DNA of 64,000 nucleotides from Natrinema salaciae (GTDB lineage: Archaea; Halobacteriota; Halobacteria; Halobacteriales; Natrialbaceae): assembly GCF_900110865.1 (NCBI RefSeq), contig NZ_FOFD01000006.1, positions 124,001-188,000 of the forward strand, written 5' to 3'. This document shows, piece by piece, positions 1-53,692 of the stretch (the stretch's first letter is position 1; each line of letters starts with the position of its first letter). The position numbers and the translations under genes are program-made. The notes below the pieces were generated by a model. It saw nothing but the letters and a program-made list of their open reading frames with translations. It was not told where the DNA came from and did not search any database.

Positions 1-1084
1 ACGCCGTACTCGGGGCCGTTGGTCGGATCGATCTCGAAGTTCGAGAGGGTACAGTTTCTGGTCGGCGTCCCGTCGTCCGCGACGAGGCTATCGCCCCGAC
101 CGTCCCACACGCTGTTCCAGGCCGTTCCCGGGCGCTGCACGTCGAACTGCACCGGTGCGTCCGACTCGCCCTCCCCGCCGCGGGTCGCCCAGTAGCCGTT
201 CACCACGACGTTTTTGGACGAGACGACGTCGATGTGGTGATAGTGCACCCGATCGCCGTAGATATTTTCCAGCCGAACGTTTTCCGCGTGTGCGGGCATG
301 ATCCCGGTCGCGTCCGGCGCATCGATGCGGACGTTGCGAACGCCCCAGTTCGATGCGCCGGCGTAGCCCGTCGCGTCGTACCCCCTGTTCGAGAGGAGCG
401 CCCGCCCTTCCTCACCGTCGGGGCGCGGCCCGTCGAAGACGGTCGCGCGCCCCGCGCCCAGCAGCATCGTGTCGTCGCCCACCAGCGGCGTCCGCTCGAG
501 GAGGTATCGGCCGGGAGGGAAGTACACGATCCCGCCGCCGGCCCCGTCGACCGTCTCGAGGAGTTCGTGGACGGCCTGGCCGACTTCGGTTTCCCCGTCG
601 CCCTCGATTCCGTGGGCCTCGACGTTCCACACGGGGGTTTCCTCGGTCCGCGCGTGGACGAGCCGCGCCGCCTCGAAGTGACTCGTTCCCGGCACCGGGT
701 GGTCGGCGCACCCCAGACCGCTGAAGTGCTTCCAATCGCCGCTCGCAGCGTCCCAGCGCCAGGTGAGCCCCTGATCGGTCGCGTGGTACAGTTCGTCGTC
801 GTACTCGCCCTCTGCGGGCCGGTCGGCGATCGGTCCGTGCACGATCGCGCGTTCGTCGACCGCCTCGACCGTGTCGGTGTGGTCCCAGTCGTCGCCCCGC
901 TCGTACGTCCCCAGTCCGAGTCGCGGTGTTCGATCGACCACGATCACTCCGCCCCGTATTCGCGTCCGTACGCCGTCCCGTATCCGGACCGGGTGGTCGT
1001 GCGATCCGAACAGCCGGCGAGCGTAATGCAACCGCCCGACACTGTCGCGAGGAGGTCGCGCCGCCGCAGTTCTGAACTGCTCAT
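1..1084 (-). CDS. Lipobox-signal beta-helix (pectate-lyase-like) protein, partial and frameshifted
   Basis: The gene runs off the left edge, so its C-terminus is missing. The ATG at 1084 opens a signal sequence with twin Arg/Lys-type residues (ELRRRDLL) and a lipobox ending LAGC, typical of haloarchaeal exported lipoproteins. That frame stops after about 47 residues near 942. The rest of the protein continues in another minus-strand frame that is open from 1085 down to the left edge. It has a coherent acidic composition: a DWDHTDTV region, a LTWRWDAASGDW segment, then YFPPGRYLLERTPLVG and repeated VRNVRI/VRLENI strands typical of right-handed beta-helix carbohydrate-active proteins. The two frames meet at a GTGA overlap, so a coupled GTG start near 947 is formally possible. 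A single-base indel, in the organism or in the assembly, is more likely. The substrate is unknown. Confidence 0.7.
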
Positions 1085-40691: not shown

Positions 40692-41873
40692 CTAGCGCTC
40701 GAGAATGCGATCGATCAGCCCGCTCTCGTCGCTGCCGAGCGCCGACCGCACGAGCAGGTGGCCGCCGAGCATCGAGGGGCTGATCACGGCGTTCGCGCCG
40801 GCGCGCTCGAGTTTCTTCGTGTTTTCGCGGTCGGTCGCGGCGGCGACGATGCGGGTGTTCGGTGCGAGTTCGCGGGCGGTGAGGACGGTCAGCGCGTCCT
40901 CGGCGTCGTGGTTCGTGGCGACGAGGATGGCGGCCGCGCGGTCGATCTTCGCGCGACGGAGCGGTTCCTCGTCGCTGGGGTCCCCGGTGACGACCGAGAT
41001 CCCCCGTTGGGAGAGGTTCGCCGCGACCTCGCGGTCGCTGGTGACGACGACGAACCCCCGACCGGTGTCCGCGAGTTCGTCGACGATCGGTTCCGTCAGT
41101 TCGCCGTAACCGAGCACGAGGATGTGCTCGTCCAAGAGTTGGAGCTGTGATTCGGTCATCTTTCCGAGTGTCTTCGAGATACGGTCCTGAATGAGCGGGC
41201 CGACCAGGGCCCCGATAGCGATACCGAAACTGGCCACGCCGAGGACGAGGACGGACATGGTAAACAGCATTCCCTCGAGCGACTCCTGGTTCGGGGTCAC
41301 GTCGCCGTAGCCGACCGTACTCGAGGTGATCAGCGTGAAGTAGAAGGCGTCGAGGATGTTGTTGATACCCTCGAAGTGGTCCCGCAGGGCGTAGCCACCG
41401 ATGGTACCGTACAGTTGGACGCCGACCAGTGCCGCCCCGGCCGCGATCTGTGTCGTCGTTAGCGAGAGCGGTTTGTCGAATCGGCTGCGGGTCAACAGGA
41501 GGGCCGGAATCGACACGATGGAGAGGACGACGAGCGGAAACGAGTACTGACTCGACTGGAGGAATCCCTGTGCCGCAGTCATCGGCAGCAACAGCAGCGT
41601 CGCCCACCACCCGGCCCGGAGCCCGCGTCGGAGGGCGAGGGCACTGCCGACCATCATGAATCCGGTAAGTGCTCCGGTGAACGCGGCGGCGCTTTGAATC
41701 GCTTCGGGAACGTACCCGTGGAGCGGTCCTGGATTCGGGGTCCAGATGTTGATGACTGCAGTGGCGACCGAGAGCAGCGCGACGAGCAGGACGAGGACCA
41801 CGGTTGCGCGCGTTGTCAGCACTCGCCGCCAGTTGTCCGGGAGTCGCGCTCGAACCGACCGGTCGCCGACCAT
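40692..41873 (-). CDS. Potassium channel with RCK/TrkA-N domain
   Basis: This 393-residue ion channel starts at the ATG at 41873 (MVGDRSVRAR). It has about six transmembrane helices, with the last two enclosing the pore loop SSTVGYGDVTPN (filter TVGYGD at 186-191). The cytoplasmic RCK/TrkA_N domain is HILVLGYGELTEPIVDELADTGRGFVVVT (from about 250) with Rossmann GYGELT, followed by a second strand set (SVVTGDPSDEEPLRRAKIDRAAAILVAT). It forms a tetrameric K+ channel gated by a nucleotide or ion. It lies beside HPP-USP and TrkA_C genes. Confidence 0.94.
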   Translation of the reverse strand: MVGDRSVRARLPDNWRRVLTTRATVVLVLLVALLSVATAVINIWTPNPGPLHGYVPEAIQSAAAFTGALTGFMMVGSALALRRGLRAGWWATLLLLPMTAAQGFLQSSQYSFPLVVLSIVSIPALLLTRSRFDKPLSLTTTQIAAGAALVGVQLYGTIGGYALRDHFEGINNILDAFYFTLITSSTVGYGDVTPNQESLEGMLFTMSVLVLGVASFGIAIGALVGPLIQDRISKTLGKMTESQLQLLDEHILVLGYGELTEPIVDELADTGRGFVVVTSDREVAANLSQRGISVVTGDPSDEEPLRRAKIDRAAAILVATNHDAEDALTVLTARELAPNTRIVAAATDRENTKKLERAGANAVISPSMLGGHLLVRSALGSDESGLIDRILER

Positions 41874-42032
41874 ACACACCGCTCGGCGGCGGTGTTAGTT
41901 AAACGTCTCCGTCTCCCGTCGAGCCGGCGCGACGCACTCACACCGCATCGGCCGCCGCCTCGAGGACGACCGACCACCACCCTCGTCGATCGTGTCGGTG
42001 CTAATTTAACGGTTCCAGCCCACCGACACACA

Positions 42033-52927: not shown

Positions 52928-53692
52928 GTGTTCCCCGATACCACCCCACACCTCGATGATCGGCCTGTTCTGCGCCGGACGCTGGCACCGATCGGCGTCT
53001 TCGTCGCGATCGTCGTCGCGGGAATTGCGGGCTTTGCGGCGCTCGGGAACGTCGGCCTCGTGGAGGCGGCGTTCTGGCTGGTCGATCTCACGAGCGTCGA
53101 TCTCCACTTTCAGGAGCACGCCGGTCCCGAGCGGGCGACCAAGGCCTACGCTATTCTGGTGACGGCCGGGCTCGTTCTGTCGGGACTGTGGATCGGTGAG
53201 ACGGTCGTCACCGAGGTGTTCGGGGGGCGGATTCCGACGGCGGTCTCACGAGCAACAATGCAACGACAAATCGACACCACTGACGGGCACGTCATCGTTT
53301 GCGGCTACGGAATGTTCGGACGAACGGTCGCCAACCGGCTCGCGGAGGCGGGTCGGACGGTCGTCGTCGTCGAAATAAACGGCGATAACGCAACGCGCGC
53401 TCGAGAGGACGGGCACCTGCTCGTCGAGGGCGACGCCAGACGGGAGCAGGTGTTGCGGACCGCCGGGGTCGACCGGGCGACGAAACTCGTCGCCGCGATC
53501 GACGACTCGAACGTCAACATCCAGATCGCGATCGTCAGCGGGACGGCCGCGTCGACGACCGAAATTCTCGTTCGGGTCGGCGACGAGATGTACGAATCGG
53601 TCGCGAAGGAGGCCGGCGCCGACGAGGTCGTCATTCCCGAAGTCGTCAGCGGCGAACGCGTCACCCGGCTGCTCGAGCGGCCGGCGGACTGA
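52928..53692 (+). CDS. RCK/TrkA-N protein with a two-helix channel-like module lacking the selectivity filter
   Basis: This 254-residue protein starts at a GTG (52928). It has two membrane helices (about 21-40 and 73-98), with a linker where a K+ channel would carry the pore loop and TVGYGD. Here the corresponding segment is LTSVDLHFQEHAGPE (54-68), so the filter is missing. A Rossmann RCK domain follows (VIVCGYGMFGRTVANRLAEAG, GYGMFG at 126-131), then the second strand set (LVEGDARREQVLRTAGVDRATKLVAAIDD). It may be a regulator of another channel or a degenerate channel. AT-rich sequence lies upstream. Confidence 0.82.
   Translation: MFPDTTPHLDDRPVLRRTLAPIGVFVAIVVAGIAGFAALGNVGLVEAAFWLVDLTSVDLHFQEHAGPERATKAYAILVTAGLVLSGLWIGETVVTEVFGGRIPTAVSRATMQRQIDTTDGHVIVCGYGMFGRTVANRLAEAGRTVVVVEINGDNATRAREDGHLLVEGDARREQVLRTAGVDRATKLVAAIDDSNVNIQIAIVSGTAASTTEILVRVGDEMYESVAKEAGADEVVIPEVVSGERVTRLLERPAD

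Follow-up and report, generated by a model that had tools for sequence, protein, structure and literature searches.

A conserved haloarchaeal family of two-helix RCK proteins carrying a different loop at the position of the K+ channel filter

A family of haloarchaeal proteins retains the MthK-type order of an outer helix (M1), a pore loop, an inner helix (M2) and the N-lobe of an RCK domain, is homologous to TTVGYGD channels, forms one clade and keeps its altered loop under purifying selection. On the best reading of the sequences, a single replacement in a common ancestor of the family put the conserved motif [L/P]-T-S-I-[E/D]-L-H-F in the place of the K+ filter TTVGYGD. The product is probably functional, either conducting another ion or acting as a sensor, rather than a K+ channel that has broken down. 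Its most likely function appears to be that of a pore for cations other than K+, gated by nucleotides that bind the RCK N-lobes (rough probability 0.45). The member from which the analysis started lies in a window of 64,000 nucleotides from Natrinema salaciae, the whole stretch of DNA that was analysed.

The features of the gene are collected in Table 1. The two helices flanking the loop show up as maxima of hydropathy, one near residues 13-47 and the other near 75-94, and arginines preceding M1 suggest a cytoplasmic N-terminus. Residues 54-68, between the two hydrophobic helices, read LTSVDLHFQEHAGPE, confirming the loop that a first-pass annotation of this DNA had quoted at the expected site of TVGYGD; within it, LTSVDLHFQEH occupies the place of the MthK-type TTVGYGD. 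That annotation was right that a channel-type two-transmembrane (2TM) part is joined to RCK here and that the K+ filter is missing. It had also called the RCK domain and layout complete, and here only part of the claim stood: full-length profile and fold matches support the order of 2TM, loop and RCK, whereas the RCK portion comprises the N-terminal Rossmann lobe only. Neither Ion_trans_2 nor TrkA_C, the RCK C-lobe, occurs among the 17 Pfam families listed for the protein at E <= 1, the chain stops at residue 254, and Pfam places a single TrkA_N stretch in the 254 aa, with no tandem RCK domains. The N-lobe carries the Rossmann motif GYGMFG, and acidic E149 ends its second strand, which we take to be typical of an NAD(H)-type site. 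Since one annotated record names the family only 'NAD(P)-binding protein', the channel ancestry is invisible in that record.

Table 1. Features of the replaced-filter gene and its product (nucleotide positions are those of the window)
Feature	Position	Strand	Basis
Entire gene, encoding the 254-aa replaced-filter 2TM-RCK protein	52928..53692, including stop codon	+	GTG start, ORF
M1 outer helix	52967..53047, residues about 14-40	+	Hydropathy and AlphaFold2 helix 9-40
Pore helix with W50	53057..53083, residues 44-52	+	AlphaFold2 helix and conservation (W50 in 114/115)
Replaced filter core TSVDLHF	53090..53110, residues 55-61	+	Conservation, dN/dS, alignment to TTVGYGD channels
M2 inner helix with W88 and E91	53129..53218, residues 68-97	+	AlphaFold2 and conservation
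RCK N-lobe (TrkA_N)	53291..53638, residues 122-237	+	Pfam E 2.4e-25 and MthK RCK structural alignment

The descent from K+ channels was traced with sequence profiles and a tree. The full profile matched solved MthK (13-235 against 26-240) with E 1.2e-12, while the transmembrane-part profile alone gave only a chance match (E 1.4) against solved chains by sequence; profile A2 was built from 41 of 113 N-terminal pieces. Across the phylum, 43 of 294 genomes matched the transmembrane-part profile at E <= 0.1, comprising 14 with family members, one with a short, weak match in the same family, and another 28 from beyond the class. All 16 out-of-class loci inspected, a set that leaves aside the 12 weakest genomes and G021, carry TVGYG[D/E], and 12 of these 16 are 2TM-RCK channels that reach E <= 5.6e-26 against the full-length profile. 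In the alignment, TTVGYGD lies opposite residues 57-63, which read VDLHFQE in the window, and the family has one additional residue upstream. The filter tyrosine is thereby paired with F/Y61, the first glycine with H60 and the second filter threonine with E/D58, subject to a possible register shift of one residue. A tree of 35 of the 115 family rows with 13 canonical rows placed the replaced-filter rows in one clade with support of 100/99. This topology is consistent with a single filter replacement, but long branches meet at the split, about which the tool issued a warning.

The family is broadly yet patchily distributed. Matches at E <= 1e-20 were found in 34 of 125 genomes of the taxonomic family, and a search with residues 1-110 alone hit 99 of 391 genomes of the class, or 97 after the removal of two chance matches. 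The two rejected genomes, G237 and G298, have loci that did not match the full protein; the G237 locus is presumably a glucose-6-phosphate-isomerase-like ORF. The 97 positive genomes span 34 of 86 genera and nine family labels of the class, and the gene is present in 20 of 29 genomes of the genus; bacteria were covered through plasmid records only. Altogether, 153 loci with a tblastn hit gave 115 distinct sequences, compared apart from open-frame lengths and C-terminal extensions, which run past stops or upstream of starts. Two genomes, G108 and G328, each hold two family copies.

The replaced loop is itself conserved, as the first-pass annotation had proposed to check among orthologues. The core at residues 55-61 reads TSIELHF in 53 of the 115 distinct homologues, TSIDLHF in 12, TSIELHY in eight, TSIELYF in six and TSVELHF in five, the window's own TSVDLHF occurring once. 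TxGYG, sought as the mark of orthologues with an intact filter, was found in none of the 115, nor was any GxG within residues 51-66. Conserved positions in and around the loop include W50 (114 of 115), D53 (107), S56 (105), I57 (101), E/D58 (103), H60 (99, with Y in 13), F/Y61 (110), H64 (94), G66 (110) and P67 (102), and further along K72 (111), W88 (115) and E91 (109, with Q in six). An acid is kept somewhere in residues 53-60 by 114 of the 115, and neither the E/D58 nor the H60 ring is absolute, these being absent in 12 and 16 homologues, respectively. From 297 homologue pairs of 75-99% identity, dN/dS was 0.053 for loop residues 53-61, the lowest of the gene segments, compared with 0.145 for the pore segment, 0.321 for M1, 0.169 for M2, 0.178 for RCK and 0.202 overall, indicating that the altered loop is more strongly constrained than the rest of the gene. 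Conservation across the 115 sequences together with this constraint makes the loop pattern more than chance.

These data leave almost no room for a decayed pseudochannel: loss does occur, as a copy in G061 illustrates, and the distribution is patchy (97/391), but decay, whether of the single copy or of the family as a whole, was rejected by the loop dN/dS and by conservation across nine families of the class. The G061 copy (L173, G061:C1:2051572-2051823) has an open frame of 122 aa in which W50 is changed to Q and the match ends at residue 92; judged from its sequence it is a truncated pseudogene, in one genome of the genus, and is counted among the 97.

Some members deviate in the loop. A subclade carries G at position 58, and the six Q91 homologues (L049, L147, L156, L157, L160 and L164) belong there or share its loop, all having G58 and lacking D53. 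Five of the six are in the tree and form one clade, indicating that the pore-loop and inner-helix acids were lost together in one event. L105 and L170 have a loop shortened after the histidine (PASISIHGEG and PTSMELHGVG, respectively), and L170 is the deepest branch in the tree as drawn.

AlphaFold2, given 28 homologues, produced a model of mean pLDDT 82 with helices at 9-40, 44-52, 55-63 and 68-97 followed by a Rossmann fold; all models are monomers, with pLDDT values between 82 and 69 across the five that cover the full length. MthK 6oly was the best Foldseek match of the whole model (E 2.1e-12), and the RCK lobe aligned with the MthK RCK domain over 120 residues at 1.4 A (VIA-align Z 19.8). 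The transmembrane part modelled alone also reached pLDDT 82. Its lowest Foldseek E value was 0.074, with none at or below 0.001, and the best 50 rows listed were all NaK or MthK structures. Structural alignments of this part tie at Z about 8 among MthK, NaK, TRPV, NavAb and KcsA; the NavAb pore 7pgg (104 residues, 2.6 A, Z 8.2) is tied with MthK and NaK, although for helical models this may reflect a common arrangement only. With helices at 44-52 and 55-63, the model contains no extended filter, and the short helix at the filter position recalls two-pore-helix channels, though it could equally be a plug.

Having lost the filter glycines together with their order, the pore can no longer assemble a K+ filter. 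The favoured proposal treats the family as a haloarchaeal branch of the MthK-type 2TM-RCK fold, in which four subunits would form a P-loop pore and a ring of RCK N-lobes would bind an adenine dinucleotide or nucleotide and gate it. Such a pore would most likely pass another cation, either divalent or without selectivity, with putative rings of D53, E/D58 and H60 at its outer mouth and E91 near its inner mouth. MthK E92 and the inner acidic ring of BK are probable parallels to E91, in part going by the title of structure 3r65. This cation pore is favoured because the loop is the most constrained segment, acids recur at D53, E/D58 and E91, and CASTOR provides a precedent. Against it, a sensor loop would also be expected to be conserved, and the lack of an extended filter in the model fits a plug as well as another pore. 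If the protein conducts, it would be a natural K+ channel scaffold that lost its filter and kept RCK gating, and would show filter chemistry evolving from TVGYGD in cells that hold molar K+ inside.

Nearly as likely as a cation pore is a non-conducting role, in which the 2TM part serves as a transmembrane anchor or as an outside-facing sensor, whose acids and histidines might capture a metal or a proton, while the RCK lobe either relays a signal to another K+ channel or transporter or joins one in a ring. The protein would then be a channel turned sensor or partner subunit. In Trk and Ktr systems, RCK N-lobes work as subunits in their own right, and such proteins were matched in the profile and structure searches; the short helix that fills the filter in the model also favours this alternative. 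Partner channels exist too, PF07885 matches being present in 96 of the 97 gene-bearing genomes, but the sole exception, G262 (93% complete), has the gene without such a match. As PF07885 K+ channels occur in 387 of 391 class genomes, co-occurrence with them is uninformative, and the replaced-filter protein adds to ordinary K+ channels and does not substitute for them. A plain anchor, moreover, would leave the loop's top constraint unexplained.

The genomic neighbourhood bears on the same alternative. A canonical TVGYGD channel of 395 aa lies about 11 kb away on the opposite strand of the window (40692-41879, minus strand), and the two genes are 10-16 kb apart in 14 of the 20 genus genomes with the replaced-filter gene, though not in one operon. 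All 29 genomes of the genus have this channel, nine of them without the replaced-filter gene, so the channel does not need that gene. The first-pass suggestion of a partner subunit for the nearby channel accordingly found no specific support, and its other proposal, a pore of different selectivity, is the likelier of the two. Nor is there a conserved neighbour: the 28 loci compared run from Natrinema to Halobellus, Haladaptatus, Halosimplex, Haloglomus and Halorutilus, and only 10 of them, all of close relatives, have metG and pyk beside the gene, while the 18 distant loci have no neighbour common to more than four and no wider synteny. One four-locus neighbour cluster (L090, L091, L102 and L106) has nearby what we take to be a thymidylate-synthase-like ORF.

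That K+ is still conducted, through a different kind of filter, is improbable. The nearest relatives are K+ channels and the aromatic F/Y61 aligns with the filter tyrosine, but neither filter glycine is kept in any homologue, and an acid and a histidine at filter positions do not fit known K+ filter geometry.

Among characterized systems, MthK and the archaeal single-RCK 2TM K+ channels share with the family the order of M1, pore loop, M2 and RCK N-lobe; they carry TTVGYGD, whereas the family has a TSIELHF-type motif with one extra upstream residue and no RCK C-lobe seen. CASTOR is an RCK-gated Ca2+ channel without TVGYG in which a filter aspartate is essential, the filter of CASTOR/POLLUX/DMI1 being AD-S/A-GNHA (PMC6697748). 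These plant channels resemble the family in being linked to RCK, in lacking TVGYG and in having an acidic filter residue with a histidine nearby (PMC6697748). Compared by Pfam and description, they differ in their two tandem RCK domains, four-helix membrane part and other filter, and the motif AD(S/A)GNHA (PMC6697748) is not among the homologue loops listed. A bolder form of the cation-pore proposal, with a Glu/Asp-x-His filter between two pore helices in an NAD- or nucleotide-gated divalent-cation or proton pore that would be the first prokaryotic counterpart of CASTOR, independently reached, seems rather unlikely.

NaKTs of Tsukamurella paurometabola is described as a 2TM tetrameric non-selective channel whose filter LPMGNGPLSP is specific to it (PMC5052707). 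It is like the family in being a 2TM channel with an unusual filter, and unlike it in that its filter is described as unique to one channel, whereas the haloarchaeal motif runs through a broad RCK-linked family. GsuK, a 2TM channel that ADP and NAD+ activate, shares the order of pore and RCK lobe and matched the fold with E 2.7e-11; in contrast to the family, it is a K+ channel and has two RCK domains (PMC3510474). Plant RCK channels without TVGYG and bacterial 2TM channels with odd filters are thus already known, the latter from PMC5052707. No haloarchaeal RCK channel without a K+ filter was found in the literature searched, which was mostly open-access, and a conserved haloarchaeal family with a TSIELHF-type motif, not met in the open-access literature, is apparently new.

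Two further loci of the window's own genome, L002 (G000:C4 near 160986) and L006 (G000:C2 near 706772), have two RCK-like stretches each; the filter of the former, a frame of 547 aa, reads TTGYGE, and the latter, a frame of 638 aa, has TAGFG.
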